A DNA stretch of 64,000 nt, from positions 1-64,000 of the forward strand of contig CAIQQH010000068.1 of assembly GCA_903873915.1 (NCBI GenBank), read 5' to 3'. Under the pieces are notes generated by a model. The model ran no database searches. It saw only the letters and a program-made list of their open reading frames with translations, and had not been told where the DNA came from. This document shows, one piece after another, positions 903 to 11,134 of this stretch. The first letter of the stretch is position 1. Every line of letters starts with the position of its first letter. The position numbers and the translations under genes are program-made. The DNA is from an uncultured Flavobacteriia bacterium. GTDB lineage: Bacteria > Bacteroidota > Bacteroidia > Flavobacteriales_D > Crocinitomicaceae.

Positions 903-921
903 TTCCTTTTTTAAGGAATTA
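900..921. terminator. Bidirectional hairpin spanning both convergent stop codons
   Basis: TAATTCCTT-TTTT-AAGGAATTA perfect stem between convergent genes; weak U-tract. Confidence 0.4.
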
Positions 922-3043
922 ATTCTAAATCAATCTGACGTTTCCGCACGTGAACTTCTGAAATACGCACAGTGACCTTGTCGCCAAAATTGTATTCCTT
1001 TTTAAATCGCGAACCTATAATTCTATATTTATCGGCATCAAAGAAAAAACGATCTCCAGGAATAGCCATCATTGGAACCATTCCTTCACACTGATTTCCA
1101 TCCATTCGAACAAACAAACCAAATTCTGCAATTCCAGAAACAATTCCTGTAAATACCTCTCCAACGTGATCCATGACAAATACCGTTTGGAAATATTTTG
1201 TGGATTCACGCTCTGCATCTACTGCTTTTCGTTCCATCTTGGAAATGCGCTTGCACACATCTGAAAGCCCATTGCCGTAGCGGTGCTTTTTAGTGCTTAA
1301 TTCTTCTTGTAGGACGCGATGGACGATCAAGTCGGCATAACGGCGTATAGGTGATGTGAAATGCGTGTAGAAGTCAAATGCGAGCCCGTAGTGACCAATA
1401 TTATCCGTCTCATAGGTTGCTTTTGCCATCGATCGAATGGCCATGGTCTGGATCAATGAATACTCAGGGGTATGACGAATTTCTTCTAAAAGGGTGTTGA
1501 TATTCAATGCAATTTTATCCGGTTGCCGAGCGTCCACCTTATATCCAAATTTTTCAATAAAGACATTGAACAATGCAATTTTTGCTGCGTCTGGCTTATC
1601 GTGTACCCTGAAAATGAACGGAACAGTGTCTCTCCCTTTTTTAGGTGCCGCGACAAATTTTGCCACATGTTTATTGGCCAATAACATAAACTCTTCAATC
1701 AGTTTGTGTGCATCTTTCGAGGTTTTAATGATCACCTCTACAGGGTGTCCTTCATCGTTTAAACGGAAGCGTACTTCTTCGGATTCAATACTTAAAGCGC
1801 CGTGTTTTAAGCGTGATTTTCGCAAAATTTTAGCGATTTTATCTAAAATAAGGATTTCTTCCTTATAATCTCCGTCTTTTCCTTCGATGATTTCTTGTGC
1901 ATCTTCATAGCTAAATCGACGGTTGGAATGGATTACGGTTTTTCCAAACCACTGGTCATGAACAACACCCGCCTCGTCTATTTCGAAGATGACGGAGAAG
2001 CTGTATTTGTCTTCATTTGGACGAAGAGAACAGGCCATATTGGACAACTGTTCTGGCAACATTGGAACAACCCGATCGACAAGATAAACAGAGTTTGAAC
2101 GCTTCAAGGCCTCAATATCCATCGCGCTACCTGGACGCACATAATGACTAACATCCGCAATGTGAACACCCAATTCAATGTGGCCATTTTCCAATCTACG
2201 GAAAGAGAGCGCATCATCAAAATCTTTTGCGTCTACAGGATCGATGGTGAATGTTGTCACCCCACGCATGTCTCTGCGGATAGCAATTTCTTTTTCATCC
2301 AATTCCATTCCAACGGTTTCTGCTTCAACCAAAACAGCTTGTGGGAATTTATAGTCAATACCATGATTGCATAAAACACTAATCATTTCTGTATCGTTTG
2401 ACCCGGCCTTACCGAGTACTTCTATAACTTCTCCGTAGGGATTGTCTGAGGTTTTTGGCCAAACCGTGATTTTTACCAAGGCTTTATCCCCATTTTTAGC
2501 ACCGTTTAATTTCTCTTTTGAAATGTAGATGTCTGTTCCGGCCTTCAGGTTGTCGGGCACTAAAAAAGCAAATTTATCGTGCAATTCAATGGTTCCTACA
2601 TATTGAGATTTCTCACGCTCTAAAACAGCAATGATCTCCCCTTCATTTCTTGATTTCCCACGCTTAAAAATACGCACACGAACCCGGTCTCCGTTGAGCG
2701 CTTGATTCAGGTTTTGAGGAGCAATAAAAATATCTGACTCTTCGTCGTCTGTGACCACAAATCCTGCACCACGAGCTGTCAGCTCAATCGACCCCTCAAC
2801 CAAATCGTTTTTCACAGACAACGAATAAACGCCGTGCGCATGCGCTTGTAAAAAGCCGTCATTAGTGAGTTCCTGCAGCACATCAAACACTAATTTTCGC
2901 AAGGCGTTTTCTCGAACATCAACGAGAACGCAGACTTGTTTGTGAGACAGTACACTGTCGGGATTTTTATCAAACACCTTTCTCACAATGTGAACAAGAC
3001 TGTTTTTCATTTTTGCAGGTTTTCCGCCTTTATTTTTTGACAT
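911..3043 (-). CDS. rnr: Ribonuclease R
   Basis: RNB motifs (FTIDPVDAKDFDDALS, HYGLAFDFYTHFTSPIRRYADLIVHR), OB/CSD and C-term S1 domain. Confidence 0.96.
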   Translation of the reverse strand: MSKNKGGKPAKMKNSLVHIVRKVFDKNPDSVLSHKQVCVLVDVRENALRKLVFDVLQELTNDGFLQAHAHGVYSLSVKNDLVEGSIELTARGAGFVVTDDEESDIFIAPQNLNQALNGDRVRVRIFKRGKSRNEGEIIAVLEREKSQYVGTIELHDKFAFLVPDNLKAGTDIYISKEKLNGAKNGDKALVKITVWPKTSDNPYGEVIEVLGKAGSNDTEMISVLCNHGIDYKFPQAVLVEAETVGMELDEKEIAIRRDMRGVTTFTIDPVDAKDFDDALSFRRLENGHIELGVHIADVSHYVRPGSAMDIEALKRSNSVYLVDRVVPMLPEQLSNMACSLRPNEDKYSFSVIFEIDEAGVVHDQWFGKTVIHSNRRFSYEDAQEIIEGKDGDYKEEILILDKIAKILRKSRLKHGALSIESEEVRFRLNDEGHPVEVIIKTSKDAHKLIEEFMLLANKHVAKFVAAPKKGRDTVPFIFRVHDKPDAAKIALFNVFIEKFGYKVDARQPDKIALNINTLLEEIRHTPEYSLIQTMAIRSMAKATYETDNIGHYGLAFDFYTHFTSPIRRYADLIVHRVLQEELSTKKHRYGNGLSDVCKRISKMERKAVDAERESTKYFQTVFVMDHVGEVFTGIVSGIAEFGLFVRMDGNQCEGMVPMMAIPGDRFFFDADKYRIIGSRFKKEYNFGDKVTVRISEVHVRKRQIDLELIP

Positions 3044-3255: not shown

Positions 3256-3774
3256 ATGAACCCACTTGTTGAAAGCGCCTTGAATGAGCAAGTTCAAAAG
3301 GAAGCATCCTCTTCTCAATTTTACCTGGCAATGGCCTCTTGGGCTGAAAGTAACGGATTGAATGGAACAGCTAAGTTTATGTATCAACACTCTGACGAAG
3401 AGCGTTTTCACATGTTGAAATTGATCCATTTTATCAACGAACGAGGAGGAAAAGCGATTATACCACCTGTTGCACAAGCGCCCAAGGAGTTCAAGAACCT
3501 AGAAAATGTTTTTGAATTGTTATTGGCACACGAGATTAGTGTTACTGATAGCATCAATAATTTAGTGGATATTTGTCTTCAACAAAAGGATTATAGCACA
3601 CATAATTTTGTGCAGTGGTATGTCTCAGAACAATTGGAGGAAGAAGCTTTGGCGAGAACCGTTCTCGACAAACTTCGGTTGATTGACGGAGACAAAGGAG
3701 GAATGTATATGTTTGACCGCGATCTGGAAAACGCATCAATTGGCGGTGCCGGGCAAAGCACTCAACAACAATAA
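3256..3774 (+). CDS. Ferritin
   Basis: Four-helix diiron pattern (EQVQKEASSSQFYLAMASWAE, SDEERFHMLK, QWYVSEQLEEE). Confidence 0.95.
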   Translation: MNPLVESALNEQVQKEASSSQFYLAMASWAESNGLNGTAKFMYQHSDEERFHMLKLIHFINERGGKAIIPPVAQAPKEFKNLENVFELLLAHEISVTDSINNLVDICLQQKDYSTHNFVQWYVSEQLEEEALARTVLDKLRLIDGDKGGMYMFDRDLENASIGGAGQSTQQQ

Positions 3775-3786
3775 ACACACGGATTA

Positions 3787-6700
3787 ATGATTAAATGGTA
3801 TTTTATACTGGGGTTTGTACTCGCACAATTTGCGGCACAAGGCCAGTCAGCATACCGTTTTTCCAATTTTTCCATCACCGATGGCCTGTCTCAAAGTTCG
3901 GTGACATGTATTCTTCAGGATGAAAACCACGCGTTGTGGATTGGAACGCAAGATGGATTGAATCGTTTTGACGGAAAGCAATTTGAGGTGTTTTCATCAG
4001 ATGATAGCGAAGGATTAAAAAGTGAATACATCAAATGTGGAATTGAAACAGACGATGGACGTTTGTGGTTTGGAACAGCGAACGGATTAAGTGTTTTTGA
4101 CCTGAAAACGGAGCGATTTAACCACTATACCCTTCCCGGGAAAATAGCCCTTCAAATAGAGGGTATCTGTAGAGATCAAGAAGGTTTGCTTTGGTTGGCA
4201 ACATCTGGAAAAGGACTGATTTCTTTTAACCCACAAACAAAAAAATTTAAGGAACGCGGTTCCATCTCTTCTTCGCGGCGCATTCATGGTGTGTACAACG
4301 CATTGGATGGTGGTCTTTTTATCGTTACAGAAGATAAGGGTGTGTTTTTAACCGACGCAAACAAGATGAGTTGTAAACAACTTGTTCTTCCCGCTAACGC
4401 CAAAAAAAACAGTGTTCAACGTATTGTGACAACAGCGAAGGGTCAAACTTATTTTTGCACCAGTCAAGGTGTTTTTGAATACATCTCAGGAAGCCAAAAA
4501 ATTACCCCTGCATTTGCTCAACTCAATACCCAATGGGGTGAGGTTTCTGTAACTGATTTGGTGCAAACAGCAGACGGAACTACTTATATTGTTACCTCAG
4601 GACAAGGATTATACACCCTGTTTTCAAATGGAGCAATTGCCAAAAGCGCGCACGATTTACTTCAAAAAAATGCCTTGTTGTTTAATGACATCAATGTGTT
4701 GTTTTTGGATGATTCAGGCACATTTTGGGCGGGTACAAAACGCGGTCTTTCAGGGTTCGATCCGACCACACAAGGGTTTTTGGGAATAGGTCCCAGCGCG
4801 GATTTAACACAAGGTATCCCTAAGCCCAACGTGTGGAGCTTTGGCGAGGATAAAAACGAAAAATACATCTTCGTGGGCACCGACCATGGAATATCACGAA
4901 GAAACAAATACACAGGAACTTTCGAACAGTACAATCGGTCCGATGTCAATACAGCGCTCGGTGAGGGCGATGAAACAGCCGTCCTTTCGATGCGTGTGAT
5001 AGATGAAAATCATGTATTAGCAGGCTGTGCAGACGGGCTGTATGAGTTACTCATCAACCCCACAGGTGGATATACATTCAAACGACTAAATCTTCAACCA
5101 GAAAAAATTCTTCTACGCCACAATAGAATTTACAGCATTGTGCATTGGAAGGAGCAGAAGTATTTCTTAGGAACAACGTCGGGGGCTTTGCTTATTGATT
5201 TAAAAACGAAAGAGCTAACTGCGTTCGAACATCGTGCAAAACACCCAAAGGAATCTATAGCGTCGGGTGTTTGTCGGGTTGTGTACAAAGACAATTCGAA
5301 TAAAATTTGGTTTGCAACAAGCTCGGGAGAATTGAGTGTGCTTTCCATTCTAAATGGTAAACCAAGCATTCGGCCGTATGAATACAATACGCAATTTCTA
5401 AAGACATCAAAAGATTATATCAGCTCAATCTGTCAAACAGGCCCACACGAATATTGGTTCGGAACAATTGGTTCTGGGCTAATGAAGTGGAATGAACAGA
5501 CGAAGAAGCTCGATGTTTTCCAAAAGAAACAAGGGCTTCCAAACAACGTGGTATACGGGGTTTTAAAAGCGGATGACAAGCATTTGTGGTTGAGTACCAA
5601 TAAAGGGTTGTGTCGCTTTGACATGTATGGAAGTAAGTGCGTGAATTACACTGAACGCGACGGGTTAATGAGCAATGAATTCAATATAGGTGCGTATCTC
5701 AAAAGTAAAAATGGTGAGCTATATTTTGGAGGGATTTATGGGTATAACTATTTTTTACCAGAAAAACTTTCATTGAAATCTAAAGATGTATCGGTAAAGA
5801 TTGTCAAGTTTAAACTTGATAAGGGATGGTTGTTACCGGGCGATGTTGGATCCCCACTGAAGAAGCCCATTTCTTTAACCGACCTAATCACTTTACGCTA
5901 TCGGCAGCGAAGTTTTTCTGTGCGCTTTCAGCCCTCCAACCTAGGTCACCCAGACCTCATTAATTACAAATACATATTAGAAGGAGCTGATGAGGGGGAG
6001 ATGCTTATTGGTTCAACGAATGAATTGCGATTTAGCTCCCTATCACCAGGAACCTATGTTTTAAAGATTTATGCCCGCATCGGCGAAGGCCCTTGGAGTG
6101 AAACACCCGCGCTTCTTTCGATTGAAATTAAATCCCCATTTTGGGCCACGTGGTGGTTTATTATGATCATTTCCGTGTTGTTGGCGGTGGCCATTCGAAT
6201 TTTTGTCCGTGAACGAATCAACTCTGCTCGCCGCGATCAGGTGCGTTTGGAAATGAAGATTGCCGATCGAACACGAGAAATACGTGCACAAAACGAAAAA
6301 ATCGAAAATCAACGCAAGCAACTGGAAGAGGAGAAAGATAAAGTCGTTGAACAGCAACGCTTACTGCAAATAGAGAAAGATAAATCTGAAAAACTTCTCA
6401 AAAACATCATCCCCGAATCCACAGCAGAAGAGTTGAAAAATCTTGGCCGAGCCAGTGCGCGCGCCTACAAAACAGTGTCTGTGTTGTTTACTGATTTTGT
6501 TGGCTTTACAAAAGCTGCTGAACGAATGACACCAACAGAACTGGTGGGTAAACTCGATGTGTATTTTAGAAAGTTTGACGAAATAATCGTAGCCAGCGGC
6601 CTGGAGAAAATCAAAACGATTGGTGACGCCTACATGTGTGCCGGTGGTGTTCCGGTGCGCAACCTTACCAACCCTGTGGACACCTGCCTTGCAGCGCTGC

Positions 6701-7692
6701 AAATTCAGCACTATATGGCAACCTTGAAGTACAATGCCATTGCCCATAACCAAGAATACTGGGAGCTGCGATTGGGAATCAATACAGGCGAAGTGACAGC
6801 GGGAGTTATCGGAAGTCAGCGCTTGGCATATGACATTTGGGGCTCAACGGTGAATCAAGCACAGCGCATGGAGATGTTGGGCGAACCAGGTAAAGTGACC
6901 ATTACAGGCAATACTTTTAAATTTATTGAACCCTATTTTGAATGTACCTTCAGAGGCAAGGCCCAATCAAAAAGTAAGGGTTTGATCGACATGTACACTG
7001 TGGACCACATTAAACCAGAACTTTCGGTCAACGGAGAAGGGGTTTTGCCAAACGAACGATTCCATCAAATCGTCAACCTGCACCACTTTAGCTCAATAAG
7101 TTATTACAAGGCGGAGAGACATATTATTCGGGTGCTGGAACAAGGTCTTTCAGAAAAATTACACTACCACAGCATTGACCATAGTATTGATGTAGTAAAA
7201 GCAGTTGAACGCTTGGCTCTTTTAGAGGGAATTACCGATGAAGGACTTTTTCTATTGAAAACAGCGGCAACGTATCACGATGCGGGATTTGTTGAACAAT
7301 ACGACAAAAACGAACCAATTGGTGCTCGACTGGCCGAAGAAATTCTACCGAAATATGGTTATACCGAACAACATATCGGAACGATCAAAGAACTTATTTA
7401 TGTAACGCAGATCCCACACAACCCGAAAAACAAACTCGAGGAAATCATGTGTGATGCTGACTTAGATTACCTCGGCAGGGATGATTTCCATGAAATTGCC
7501 GATCGTTTGCGTCGTGAGCTCCGAGAACACGGAAAAATAGATTCAGACCGTAAATGGGATGAAATACAAATACAATTCTTATCCGCACATAGGTACTTTA
7601 CAGATACCGCAAACAACACCCGTCAAGAAAAGAAGCTGGAGAACATTCAAGAGATTCGCGATCGCCTCGAACGCGATGAATACGAGGACTGA
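3787..7692 (+). CDS. Two-component-type beta-propeller sensor / class III adenylyl cyclase / HD-domain fusion protein
   Basis: Signal peptide; repeated LWIGTQDGLNRFD-type propeller blades; Y_Y_Y-like region; TM helix (WWFIMIISVLLAVAIRIFV); coiled coil; cyclase motifs VLFTDFVGFT, KIKTIGDAYM, YDIWGSTVNQAQRME; C-term HD motifs YHSIDHSIDVV, YHDAGF, CDADLDYLG. Confidence 0.9.
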   Translation: MIKWYFILGFVLAQFAAQGQSAYRFSNFSITDGLSQSSVTCILQDENHALWIGTQDGLNRFDGKQFEVFSSDDSEGLKSEYIKCGIETDDGRLWFGTANGLSVFDLKTERFNHYTLPGKIALQIEGICRDQEGLLWLATSGKGLISFNPQTKKFKERGSISSSRRIHGVYNALDGGLFIVTEDKGVFLTDANKMSCKQLVLPANAKKNSVQRIVTTAKGQTYFCTSQGVFEYISGSQKITPAFAQLNTQWGEVSVTDLVQTADGTTYIVTSGQGLYTLFSNGAIAKSAHDLLQKNALLFNDINVLFLDDSGTFWAGTKRGLSGFDPTTQGFLGIGPSADLTQGIPKPNVWSFGEDKNEKYIFVGTDHGISRRNKYTGTFEQYNRSDVNTALGEGDETAVLSMRVIDENHVLAGCADGLYELLINPTGGYTFKRLNLQPEKILLRHNRIYSIVHWKEQKYFLGTTSGALLIDLKTKELTAFEHRAKHPKESIASGVCRVVYKDNSNKIWFATSSGELSVLSILNGKPSIRPYEYNTQFLKTSKDYISSICQTGPHEYWFGTIGSGLMKWNEQTKKLDVFQKKQGLPNNVVYGVLKADDKHLWLSTNKGLCRFDMYGSKCVNYTERDGLMSNEFNIGAYLKSKNGELYFGGIYGYNYFLPEKLSLKSKDVSVKIVKFKLDKGWLLPGDVGSPLKKPISLTDLITLRYRQRSFSVRFQPSNLGHPDLINYKYILEGADEGEMLIGSTNELRFSSLSPGTYVLKIYARIGEGPWSETPALLSIEIKSPFWATWWFIMIISVLLAVAIRIFVRERINSARRDQVRLEMKIADRTREIRAQNEKIENQRKQLEEEKDKVVEQQRLLQIEKDKSEKLLKNIIPESTAEELKNLGRASARAYKTVSVLFTDFVGFTKAAERMTPTELVGKLDVYFRKFDEIIVASGLEKIKTIGDAYMCAGGVPVRNLTNPVDTCLAALQIQHYMATLKYNAIAHNQEYWELRLGINTGEVTAGVIGSQRLAYDIWGSTVNQAQRMEMLGEPGKVTITGNTFKFIEPYFECTFRGKAQSKSKGLIDMYTVDHIKPELSVNGEGVLPNERFHQIVNLHHFSSISYYKAERHIIRVLEQGLSEKLHYHSIDHSIDVVKAVERLALLEGITDEGLFLLKTAATYHDAGFVEQYDKNEPIGARLAEEILPKYGYTEQHIGTIKELIYVTQIPHNPKNKLEEIMCDADLDYLGRDDFHEIADRLRRELREHGKIDSDRKWDEIQIQFLSAHRYFTDTANNTRQEKKLENIQEIRDRLERDEYED

Positions 7693-7800: not shown

Positions 7801-8625
7801 CTAACTAAAAAGGATGCTTTGTCCGTAAGGCCCCAAATCGATAGGATTCACAACCAACGCTGGAATGCGCGCATCATTGGTGATGATGTATTGTTCGTAG
7901 TTTGTTCCCAACGCGCCCAAGAACCCTGTTCGATTTAAGTTCATGATGGCAATTAAATCAGCGTCTAGTCCGACCGCGTGTTTCACCACTTCTTTGTCAA
8001 AGCCACTGCTTGGCGCCAAGGTTGTCGTCACCTCAATGTTTCGCTCCGAAAAAAACTTGTTGGCAAAGAGTATGTTCGATTGCACTTGGTGCCGCAAAAA
8101 ATCATCTGATTCAGCCGGCGTAATAACATGAACACGCGAGTTGAAATACGTGGCAATGTTCGCGACAATCGCAAGTTTTTGTTTTGTTTCCTTATGTAAA
8201 TCCATGGGAACGACAATGTCGTCGTAGCCCGTTTGTTTAATCCCTTTTTCTTGAACAATAATAAACGGCACAGTGGAGCTTGTAATCACCTTTAAGGCAT
8301 GACTACCGGTTAGGTGTTGCCATCCGTGAGCCCCATGTGTTCCCATAAAAATGAGCTCGGAATGGTGTTCTGCGGCAAATTCTCCGATGTCTTCAAAAAT
8401 ACTTCCCACCCGAACGGTTGGAATCAAAGTAATCCCCGATGTCTCATGAACACGAAGCACTTCTGCAAGTTGCTGCTCCGCTTTGGTAATTTGTTTTTCT
8501 TTGTTTACCACATGAAGTACGTAAATTTGTGCATTCAATGGGCGTGCAGTTGCAATCGCGTGGTCAAGTGCGTTTTCAGCAACCTGCGTAAAATCGTGAG
8601 GAACGATGAAGTTTTTTGTGTTCAT
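7801..8625 (-). CDS. Universal stress protein (tandem Usp domains)
   Basis: IVPHDFTQVAENALDHAIA; GTHGAHGWQHLTGSHALKVI; second half DIVVPMDLHKETKQKL. Confidence 0.9.
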   Translation of the reverse strand: MNTKNFIVPHDFTQVAENALDHAIATARPLNAQIYVLHVVNKEKQITKAEQQLAEVLRVHETSGITLIPTVRVGSIFEDIGEFAAEHHSELIFMGTHGAHGWQHLTGSHALKVITSSTVPFIIVQEKGIKQTGYDDIVVPMDLHKETKQKLAIVANIATYFNSRVHVITPAESDDFLRHQVQSNILFANKFFSERNIEVTTTLAPSSGFDKEVVKHAVGLDADLIAIMNLNRTGFLGALGTNYEQYIITNDARIPALVVNPIDLGPYGQSILFS

Positions 8626-8725: not shown

Positions 8726-10246
8726 ATGGCCATCATTGGTAAGCTATTAAAAAAATCAAATCAAATCAATTACAAGCGCGTGTTGAAACGTGGAAAAAGC
8801 CACGCCACCCAGCGAGAAACTCTTGTAAATCTTTTGGGTTTTGCAAAAAACACATCCTTTGGTTTGGCGCATACTTTTTCAAAAGTGGTGAATGACAAAA
8901 ACCCAATTACGGCCTTCCAGCAAACAACACCAATCACAGAGTACGAGGAGTTTTATTCTTTGTGGTTAAGTCAAACGATTGAAGGTAAAAAGGACCATAC
9001 CTGGCCAGGGCGGGTGAAGTATTTTGCGCTGTCTTCTGGAACCACAGGGTCCCCAAGCAAACGGATTCCGGTAACGGAACAAATGATTCGGTCCTTTCAA
9101 AAAACAAGTGTTCGCCAATTGTCCACGCTTCATGATTTAAACCTCTCAGAACAGTTTTACAGCGCTTCAGCATTGGCTGTTGGGGGCAGCACAAAACTCA
9201 TCAAAAAACGAAAACACATCGAAGGAGACTTGAGTGGGATCTTAAAAAAGCACACCTCACTTATTGTTAGTCCGATCACCAAGCCGGGGGGTAAAATTGC
9301 TTCGATGAAAGACTGGAATCAGAAACTGGAGGCAATGATTGAGAAGGCACCAAAATGGAATATTGGCATTATTGCGGGCATTCCGAGTTGGTGCATTATG
9401 CTGATGGAACGTATCGTGGAAAGGTATGCGCTAACATCTATTCACGACATGTGGCCAAATCTTGAGGTGTATGTGCATGGCGGCGTATTTATGCAGCCCT
9501 ACCTTTCGCGCTTAGAAAAAGTCTTGGGAAAACCAATTCACTTGTTGGATACATACCTTGCCAGCGAGGGGTATTTTGCCTATCAAATAACGCCCAACTC
9601 GGAAGGAATGAAGTTGATTTTGAATACAGGTGTGTATTATGAATTTATTCCATTTACAAGTGAGTATTTTGATGAAGAAGGTCAAGTTCGAGACAAGCAC
9701 ACAGCATTTGCCTTGAGTGAAATCCAAGAGGGAGTCGATTATGCCATGGTGATCAGTACCAATGCAGGACTTTGGCGCTATTTAATAGGTGACTTGGTGC
9801 GATTTACCAGCGTTTCCGCACAAGAATTGATCATAACAGGAAGAATAAGGCAGTATTTAAGCTTGGTGGGTGAGCATATATCACTAGAAAACATCAATTC
9901 AGCAATTATAACATGTGCATCAAGCATGAGCTTAGAAATATCAGAGTATTGCATTTACGCAGACATGGAACAACAGAAACATGTATGGTTTATTGGTTGC
10001 GATGACCCTTGTAATGGACAGGCCTTGATCCAAAGTTTGGACAATCAATTGTGCGCATTAAACGATGACTATGCATCGGCCAGGAAGTACAATTTGAAGC
10101 CGCCCGAAATTCAAGTGCTTCCGGTTCAACGGTTTTATGCATTCATGAATGAATCGGGTAAGATGGGATCACAAAATAAATTTCCCCGTGTGTTGAATGC
10201 TGATCAAGCGAAAAGGTGGCTGACGTTTTTATCCCCCAACCCTTGA
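8726..10246 (+). CDS. GH3 auxin-responsive promoter family protein (acyl-adenylate/acyl-amide synthetase fold)
   Basis: YFALSSGTTGSPSKRIPVT ATP-binding motif, YLASEGYFA, GLWRYLIGDLVRF. Confidence 0.92.
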   Translation: MAIIGKLLKKSNQINYKRVLKRGKSHATQRETLVNLLGFAKNTSFGLAHTFSKVVNDKNPITAFQQTTPITEYEEFYSLWLSQTIEGKKDHTWPGRVKYFALSSGTTGSPSKRIPVTEQMIRSFQKTSVRQLSTLHDLNLSEQFYSASALAVGGSTKLIKKRKHIEGDLSGILKKHTSLIVSPITKPGGKIASMKDWNQKLEAMIEKAPKWNIGIIAGIPSWCIMLMERIVERYALTSIHDMWPNLEVYVHGGVFMQPYLSRLEKVLGKPIHLLDTYLASEGYFAYQITPNSEGMKLILNTGVYYEFIPFTSEYFDEEGQVRDKHTAFALSEIQEGVDYAMVISTNAGLWRYLIGDLVRFTSVSAQELIITGRIRQYLSLVGEHISLENINSAIITCASSMSLEISEYCIYADMEQQKHVWFIGCDDPCNGQALIQSLDNQLCALNDDYASARKYNLKPPEIQVLPVQRFYAFMNESGKMGSQNKFPRVLNADQAKRWLTFLSPNP

Positions 10247-11134
10247 TTTTTCCCATTTTAGAAGCACTGTTTTCAGGAACATGTTGACAAAAACCACAAG
10301 CACAATAATCGCCGATCCGGTGTAAAAATGGACGCTTAGTTTTGTGTTTTCTTGCAAAATAAAAATCGCTAAAAGTATGGTGTAGACAGGCTCCATGTTG
10401 ATGGAAAGCGACACAGTAAACGCGCCCAGTCGTTTAACGAGAGCAATGGATCCCAAGAAAGTAAACGACGTGCAAACAATTCCTAAAAAGAGCAACCACA
10501 GGAAGTCTTCAGTTCGCATGTTAAACAATTCCGCGTTGATTTCACCTTGAAATAAGAGGAAAACAGTCAAGAATAAAAAGGCGGAAATGAGTTCGTACAA
10601 TGAAATGGTATGCGAAGGTATGCGACGCGACAATTGTCCATTCAACACACTGAACAAAGCCGCAAAAAACGCTGAAGAAAGCCCATAAATGAGCGCTTCG
10701 ATTTCTTTTTCACCAAACTCATCTGATACAAAATAAATCCCATAAACGACAGCCAAGCCCAAGAGAAATTCAACCCACGAAAATTTCTTTTTGAACAACA
10801 AGGGTTCAAGCCACGTGACGTGAAGCGTTGTTGTTGACAAACACAAGATTCCAAGTGAGGCCGTTGAAAGTTGAATGGACTTGTAAAAGGTCATCCAATG
10901 TAATGCGACGATTACTCCAACAGCAGCAATGATCAAGAGCTGTTTTAATGAGTCAACACGGAGCGATTTTTTTAAGAACACCAGCGCAATGGCTAACCCA
11001 GCAAAACCAATCCATGTGCGGTGCCACACCAAGGGGTAGGCGTCGAGGTGAATGAGTTTACCTAAAATACCCGTAAAGCCCCAAATGAAAATGATGACAT
11101 GCAGCAGCGCGTGGTATTTAAGGTCTTTGATCAC
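10229..11134 (-). CDS. DMT/EamA family transporter
   Basis: Ten hydrophobic segments, FIWGFTGILGKL start, EamA-like repeat. Confidence 0.88.
   Translation of the reverse strand: MIKDLKYHALLHVIIFIWGFTGILGKLIHLDAYPLVWHRTWIGFAGLAIALVFLKKSLRVDSLKQLLIIAAVGVIVALHWMTFYKSIQLSTASLGILCLSTTTLHVTWLEPLLFKKKFSWVEFLLGLAVVYGIYFVSDEFGEKEIEALIYGLSSAFFAALFSVLNGQLSRRIPSHTISLYELISAFLFLTVFLLFQGEINAELFNMRTEDFLWLLFLGIVCTSFTFLGSIALVKRLGAFTVSLSINMEPVYTILLAIFILQENTKLSVHFYTGSAIIVLVVFVNMFLKTVLLKWEKSRVGG

Follow-up and report, generated by a model that had tools for sequence, protein, structure and literature searches.

What does a propeller sensor, a type that in two-component systems usually ends in a histidine kinase, do when it ends in a nucleotide cyclase followed by an HD domain? 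The question is raised by one open reading frame (ORF) in a 64,000-nucleotide stretch of DNA from an uncultured Flavobacteriia bacterium of the Crocinitomicaceae (GenBank assembly GCA_903873915.1, contig CAIQQH010000068.1, positions 1 to 64,000, forward strand), which we call the window. We argue that the protein is probably a sensor-gated adenylyl cyclase (AC) with a cyclic mononucleotide (cNMP) phosphodiesterase (PDE) in cis, and put the probability of this reading at roughly 0.6. The ORF starts with ATG, is open and complete, and encodes 1301 amino acids. Its parts are these.

3787..7692, + strand: the whole cyclase-HD ORF, running propeller, Y_Y_Y, transmembrane (TM) helix, coiled coil, class III cyclase, HD
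3787..3846, + strand: predicted signal peptide, about residues 1-20, read from the sequence as a hydrophobic N-terminus ahead of the first blade
3850..5856, + strand: predicted periplasmic double beta-propeller, about residues 22-690, from Reg_prop, the 4a2l match and the blade pattern
5944..6132, + strand: Y_Y_Y domain, residues 720-782 (Pfam, E 4.2e-10)
6148..6210, + strand: predicted single TM helix, about residues 788-808, from the sequence (FWATWWFIMIISVLLAVAIRIFV)
6214..6441, + strand: predicted signalling coiled coil, about residues 810-885, from the sequence and a long helix in the AlphaFold2 (AF2) model of residues 840-1301
6457..7002, + strand: class III adenylyl cyclase domain, residues 891-1072, from PF00211, residue conservation and the Foldseek match 5o5l
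7003..7122, + strand: linker, residues 1073-1112, lying between the domain limits, median identity 70%
7123..7635, + strand: predicted HD hydrolase module, residues 1113-1283, from PF01966, invariance, the AF2 model and Foldseek, with Y1127, H1128, H1132, H1164-D1165, E1176, D1223 and D1225

The initial annotation had named all of these domains from the letters alone, and Pfam, a PDB match, the models and the sequence bear it out. The Reg_prop repeats score 84 bits in Pfam, and the propeller has about 14 blade motifs, of which a pattern search gives 12 and inspection by eye the other 2. In the PDB the ectodomain is closest to 4a2l (E 1.7e-77), an ectodomain from a hybrid two-component system (HTCS) that we take to be BT4663. 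The window protein has the double Reg_prop propeller and Y_Y_Y domain of an HTCS-type ectodomain, and HTCS sensors also share its periplasmic placement and one TM helix. The difference lies in the output, which is histidine kinase, receiver and helix-turn-helix (HTH) in an HTCS and class III cyclase plus HD here. Pfam finds no HisKA, HATPase_c, receiver or HTH match in the window protein, so a histidine-kinase or HTH output is rejected. The cyclase does stand in place of the usual kinase, as first noted.

Guanylate_cyc (PF00211) matches residues 891-1072 at 148 bits against a Pfam cut-off of 21.9. All six adenylyl-cyclase residues are present with the roles first assigned to them: D903 and D947 for metal, K943 and D1016 for adenine, N1023 and R1027 for the transition state. 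Each is kept in 118-122 of 122 cyclase-HD proteins. The AF2 model of the cyclase-HD fragment (residues 840-1301) has a predicted local distance difference test score (pLDDT) of 85.8, and its top Foldseek match is the bacterial adenylyl cyclase 5o5l (E 2e-17). Going by these residues, the cyclase is predicted to make cyclic AMP (cAMP).

The fusion of this cyclase to an HD domain recurs widely. Among 60 relatives searched, the full-length architecture is found in most Crocinitomicaceae genomes and in several further Flavobacteriales families. In 80 further loci from public genomes the cyclase and HD are together in every case. A survey of how often the architecture recurs had been proposed at the outset, and it returns full-length relatives in dozens of genomes. 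An assembly artefact is thereby excluded as the source of the fusion, and chance fusion is rejected on the same grounds. Compared with the window protein, relatives have a median identity of 79% in the cyclase, 76% in the HD and 43% in the propeller. The ratio of nonsynonymous to synonymous substitution rates (dN/dS) in close pairs is about 0.03 for the HD and 0.005 for the cyclase. By these sequence measures the HD is almost as constrained as the cyclase. Elsewhere in the order, other families have propeller-cyclases that lack the HD (L254-L259), which implies that the HD is an added module kept by selection.

The HD model of Pfam (PF01966) matches residues 1130-1225. The score is 20.6 bits when the full protein is scanned, slightly below the 22-bit cut-off, and 24.7 bits when the module is taken alone. 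The ligands proposed from YHSIDH, YHDAGF and CDADLD hold up: Y1127, H1128, H1132, H1164, D1165, D1223 and D1225 are invariant in 46 of 46 non-redundant HD sequences. The AF2 model of the module is all-helical, with a mean pLDDT of 93.9. It has H...HD...D ligands on an HD fold, as in the HD superfamily hydrolases. Co-location of the metal ligands is judged indirectly, from the high confidence of this HD-fold model and the structures that it matches.

The metal motif is H..HD..D in YpgQ and H..HD..H..HH..D in cyclic-dinucleotide PDEs, and the sequences of class I PDEases suggest a mononuclear site (PMC8177086). The window protein has the motif found in YpgQ and the cAMP/cGMP PDEs and lacks that of the cyclic-dinucleotide PDEs. 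Between H1164 and D1223 no other His is conserved, so the extended motif is absent, and HD-GYP, PgpH or any other cyclic-dinucleotide PDE is rejected.

A phmmer search of the PDB with the HD module alone gives nothing but troponin noise, so a profile is required. The nearest solved relatives by profile (A4) are 2pq7 (1.5e-9), YedJ (6e-8), BH2835 (1.5e-7) and YpgQ (1e-4), which makes the module similar to the solved YpgQ/YedJ-like hydrolases. These share the H..HD..D site; they are stand-alone enzymes with low sequence similarity to the window HD. Foldseek places 2pq7 first (E 2.7e-4), followed by human PDE4D and PDE5A. The PDE matches have a query TM-score of about 0.5-0.64 but an E of only 1e-3, PDE4D has many redundant entries in the PDB, and the shared superfamily fold suffices to explain them. 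Class I PDEs such as these do share the HD fold and the YHxxxH..HD..D arrangement. However, theirs is a much larger helical domain, their Gln switch was not identified in the window HD and the sequence match is weak. No match to PDEase_I (PF00233) is above the cut-off in 15 HD family members; the best E is 0.007, matches occur in 3 of the 15, and the window module has none.

The YpgQ/YedJ family includes enzymes with quite different substrates. Bacterial YpgQ hydrolyses (d)NTPs, according to the part of PMC8177086 that cites Jeon et al. 2016. The plant YpgQ-like AtCN-PDE1 hydrolyses cGMP (PMC6692503), and the plant YpgQ-like BdPDE1 hydrolyses cAMP (PMC8431786). The plant enzymes imply that the fold permits a cNMP phosphodiesterase, and we argue that genomic context favours one. 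One can imagine instead that the HD is an NTP pyrophosphohydrolase of the YpgQ/YedJ type, consuming ATP or (d)NTPs and so limiting the substrate of the cyclase, or doing unrelated house-cleaning. The best profile and fold matches (2pq7, YedJ, BH2835, YpgQ) and the dNTP hydrolysis by YpgQ speak for this. However, the phosphohydrolase Arg about 3 residues before the first metal His (PMC8177086) is not seen before H1128, H1132 or H1164, and repeated fusion and adjacency of the HD to cyclases and PycTM are left unexplained. We consider this alternative unlikely.

That genomic context was examined by running the HD module profile on 396 sampled Bacteroidota genomes. HD relatives are found in 185 of them, 128 with strong matches; the weakest matches (E ~1e-4) are probably other HD proteins. 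This large Bacteroidota family is not separately recognised by Pfam or NCBIfam. Some members are stand-alone HD proteins of about 200 aa. Others are propeller-cyclase-HD proteins of the window type, short cyclase-HD proteins, a kinase-AAA-GAF-cyclase-HD protein (L164) or a receiver-cyclase-HD protein (L126, where Pfam calls the receiver). The last type is also represented in the window's own genome (G000:C66, L130:1130-2827, minus strand, 566 aa). This second cyclase-HD protein is a soluble paralogue of the window protein with the same output pair, and its N-terminus is receiver-like, though not called by Pfam. Another type (L127-L129) has a coiled coil, a degenerate cyclase lacking the first metal Asp and the adenine Asp, and an intact HD; here a pseudocyclase may regulate the HD. 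In two TPR-HD genes (L165:2602-5241 and L166:3875-6463) the N-terminus looks TIR-like by eye, and one of them adjoins a receiver-cyclase gene. HD fusions to a YitT/DUF2179 membrane protein (L140, L142, L143, L149) have a class III cyclase gene nearby in 4 of 4 loci. The commonest fusion in sister-class genomes is to PycTM (PF18967, E 7e-35). The HD is N-terminal to PycTM in many Bacteroidota (L158, L159, L162, L163, L189-L191 and L215-L234), including genomes without a class III cyclase.

A maximum likelihood tree (quick search) of 108 HD domains splits into two clades with full SH-aLRT support; most of the sequences behind the profile were cyclase-fused, and members of this kind are therefore the best sampled. 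Clade A holds all cyclase-fused HDs and their stand-alone, YitT and TPR relatives. Its sister, clade B, holds all HD-PycTM proteins and stand-alone HDs. Cyclase fusion takes six changes on this tree, which implies that it was gained or lost repeatedly. Of the unfused HD genes, 11 of 29 in clade A and 3 of 57 in clade B have a class III cyclase gene within 3 kb, where about 0.5% is expected; one match in each clade has a low cyclase score (L197 in A, L210 in B). In a same-class sample, class III cyclases are present in 21 of 21 clade A genomes and in 24 of 75 others (Fisher p 5e-9), although the sampled genomes are related, so such p-values overstate independence. Across the phylum 92 genomes have both HD and cyclase and 36 have the HD only (odds ratio 3.5). 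The recurrent fusion and adjacency to class III cyclases strengthen the case for a cyclic-nucleotide substrate. This recurrent partnership is what is new beyond the initial annotation, whose proposal, cyclic nucleotide production with a possible HD-type hydrolase in cis, stands as a reasonable inference.

One alternative is an HD that binds a cyclic nucleotide and hydrolyses it poorly or not at all. Such a module could be a feedback sensor tuning the attached cyclase, or could gate PycTM in clade B. Its fusion to an effector like PycTM and its retention beside a degenerate cyclase fit a sensing domain. Yet no architecture shows a change in any metal ligand or in the polar residues near them, and mere binding does not require such constancy. 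We find this account improbable.

HD proteins are diverse in substrate (PMC8177086), and clade B is found without class III cyclases. It is therefore worth considering an HD that acts on some other messenger, such as a cyclic dinucleotide, (p)ppGpp or a 2',3'-cNMP, and so couples the making of cAMP to a different pathway. Against this, the HD-GYP/PgpH motif is missing, and neither HD-GYP nor RelA-type models are the best Pfam or structure matches; the chance of this scenario seems small. That the HD is a fortuitous passenger, uncoupled from the cyclase, is suggested by the HD-less propeller-cyclases but is largely refuted by conservation, since full-length orthologues across several families keep the fusion, constraint is near that of the cyclase and HD-cyclase fusion is repeated in other contexts, so we regard it as very improbable indeed.

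Several observations weigh against a cNMP phosphodiesterase and must be set beside this. In sequence the HD is nearer to YpgQ/YedJ, bacterial (d)NTP pyrophosphohydrolases, than to the PDEs. The published expanded motif of the plant PDEs was checked and is unmatched by the module. The 36 HD-only genomes, apparently with clade B only, have no class III cyclase. This implies that at least clade B acts on something else or takes its messenger from another source, and that the PycTM branch is independent of class III cyclases. The cNMP-binding domain PF00027 is present in 29 of 30 genomes searched, and it was not found in the window's own assembly, which is 87.5% complete. To our knowledge no member of the HD family has a known activity.

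Even so, we argue that a gated cyclase with a PDE in cis is the most plausible reading, given the predicted anatomy, the intact cyclase residues, the intact and constrained HD site, the conserved fusion and the recurrent linkage to cyclases. The window protein would be a one-component sensor of the inner membrane. Its HTCS-type double propeller would bind a ligand in the periplasm. Y_Y_Y, the TM helix and the coiled coil would in turn relay the signal, and the class III adenylyl cyclase, as a homodimer, would make cAMP. The C-terminal HD would be an active metal-dependent phosphohydrolase, most likely converting a cyclic nucleotide to AMP. Net output would be the balance of the two activities in one polypeptide, giving a pulse, a threshold or a set-point. 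The two would be reciprocally regulated, and CRP-family proteins would presumably receive the cAMP. In this sense we infer a self-limiting second-messenger sensor, as first proposed, although both (d)NTP pyrophosphohydrolases and cGMP/cAMP phosphodiesterases are among the characterised enzymes closest to its HD.

There is a precedent for this pairing in basal plants. CAPE (COMBINED AC with PDE), known from Marchantia and further streptophytes, has a class III AC and an HD-fold PDE in one polypeptide, both activities demonstrated (PMC5159850, PMC8115329). The window protein would likewise combine a class III AC and an HD-fold phosphodiesterase, the latter predicted. However, the order is reversed in CAPE (PDE N-terminal, AC C-terminal), its PDE is a class I PDEase and it has no propeller sensor, whereas the window HD is a YpgQ-like bacterial module. 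As a type, the window protein also resembles the GGDEF-EAL proteins, from which it differs in sensor, domain order and hydrolase subfamily. A search of open-access literature found no bacterial HD-type cAMP phosphodiesterase, no propeller-cyclase-HD protein and nothing direct on bacterial AC-HD proteins.

PycTM is the membrane effector of Pycsar and responds to cyclic mononucleotides. Clade B HDs are fused to it N-terminally, and those genes resemble Pycsar effectors in the PycTM domain; the window protein has no PycTM. A Pycsar defence system, which pairs a pyrimidine cyclase with a PycTM or PycTIR effector, is rejected here. The window cyclase matches a PycC model solely through the shared cyclase domain, and PycTM was not found in the window's own genome (87.5% complete).

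The neighbouring genes are as follows.

126-902: LytTR response regulator
911-3043: RNase R
3256..3774, + strand: ferritin (PF00210), ending 12 bp upstream of the cyclase-HD ORF on the same strand
7801-8625: universal-stress-like protein, named by eye
8726-10246: GH3-like gene, named by eye
10229-11134: EamA-like gene, named by eye

Ferritin matches accompany 58 of the 80 related loci, in nearly every case immediately upstream and in the same orientation; at L098 and L099 the gene is on the other side in opposite orientation. Co-transcription of ferritin and cyclase-HD is possible. A link to iron is possible too, or this may be plain synteny. The order of the other flanking genes (LytTR, RNase R, universal-stress-like, GH3-like, EamA-like) is kept in many relatives. 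One such locus is in CP034120.1 (L062), titled Glaciecola amylolytica, a gammaproteobacterium. It is Fluviicola-like with the same gene order, so the record is probably mislabelled.

A wider claim, which we hold tentatively and would not yet bet on, is that this HD family is an unrecognised class of bacterial cyclic-mononucleotide hydrolases, widespread in the Bacteroidota. Clade A would be the dedicated off-switch of class III cyclases, either fused to them downstream of propeller, receiver or GAF/kinase inputs or encoded alongside, clade B a self-limiting ligand-handling module of PycTM effectors, and the window protein a bifunctional sensor that makes and degrades cAMP, as GGDEF-EAL proteins do c-di-GMP. 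Clade A may then be the unrecognised cyclic-nucleotide off-switch of the Bacteroidota. If this is true, HD modules travelling with class III cyclases supply the missing degradation arm, and bacteria gain a bifunctional cAMP analogue of the GGDEF-EAL proteins. It would also link cAMP-type signalling and Pycsar-type effectors through one shared HD module.

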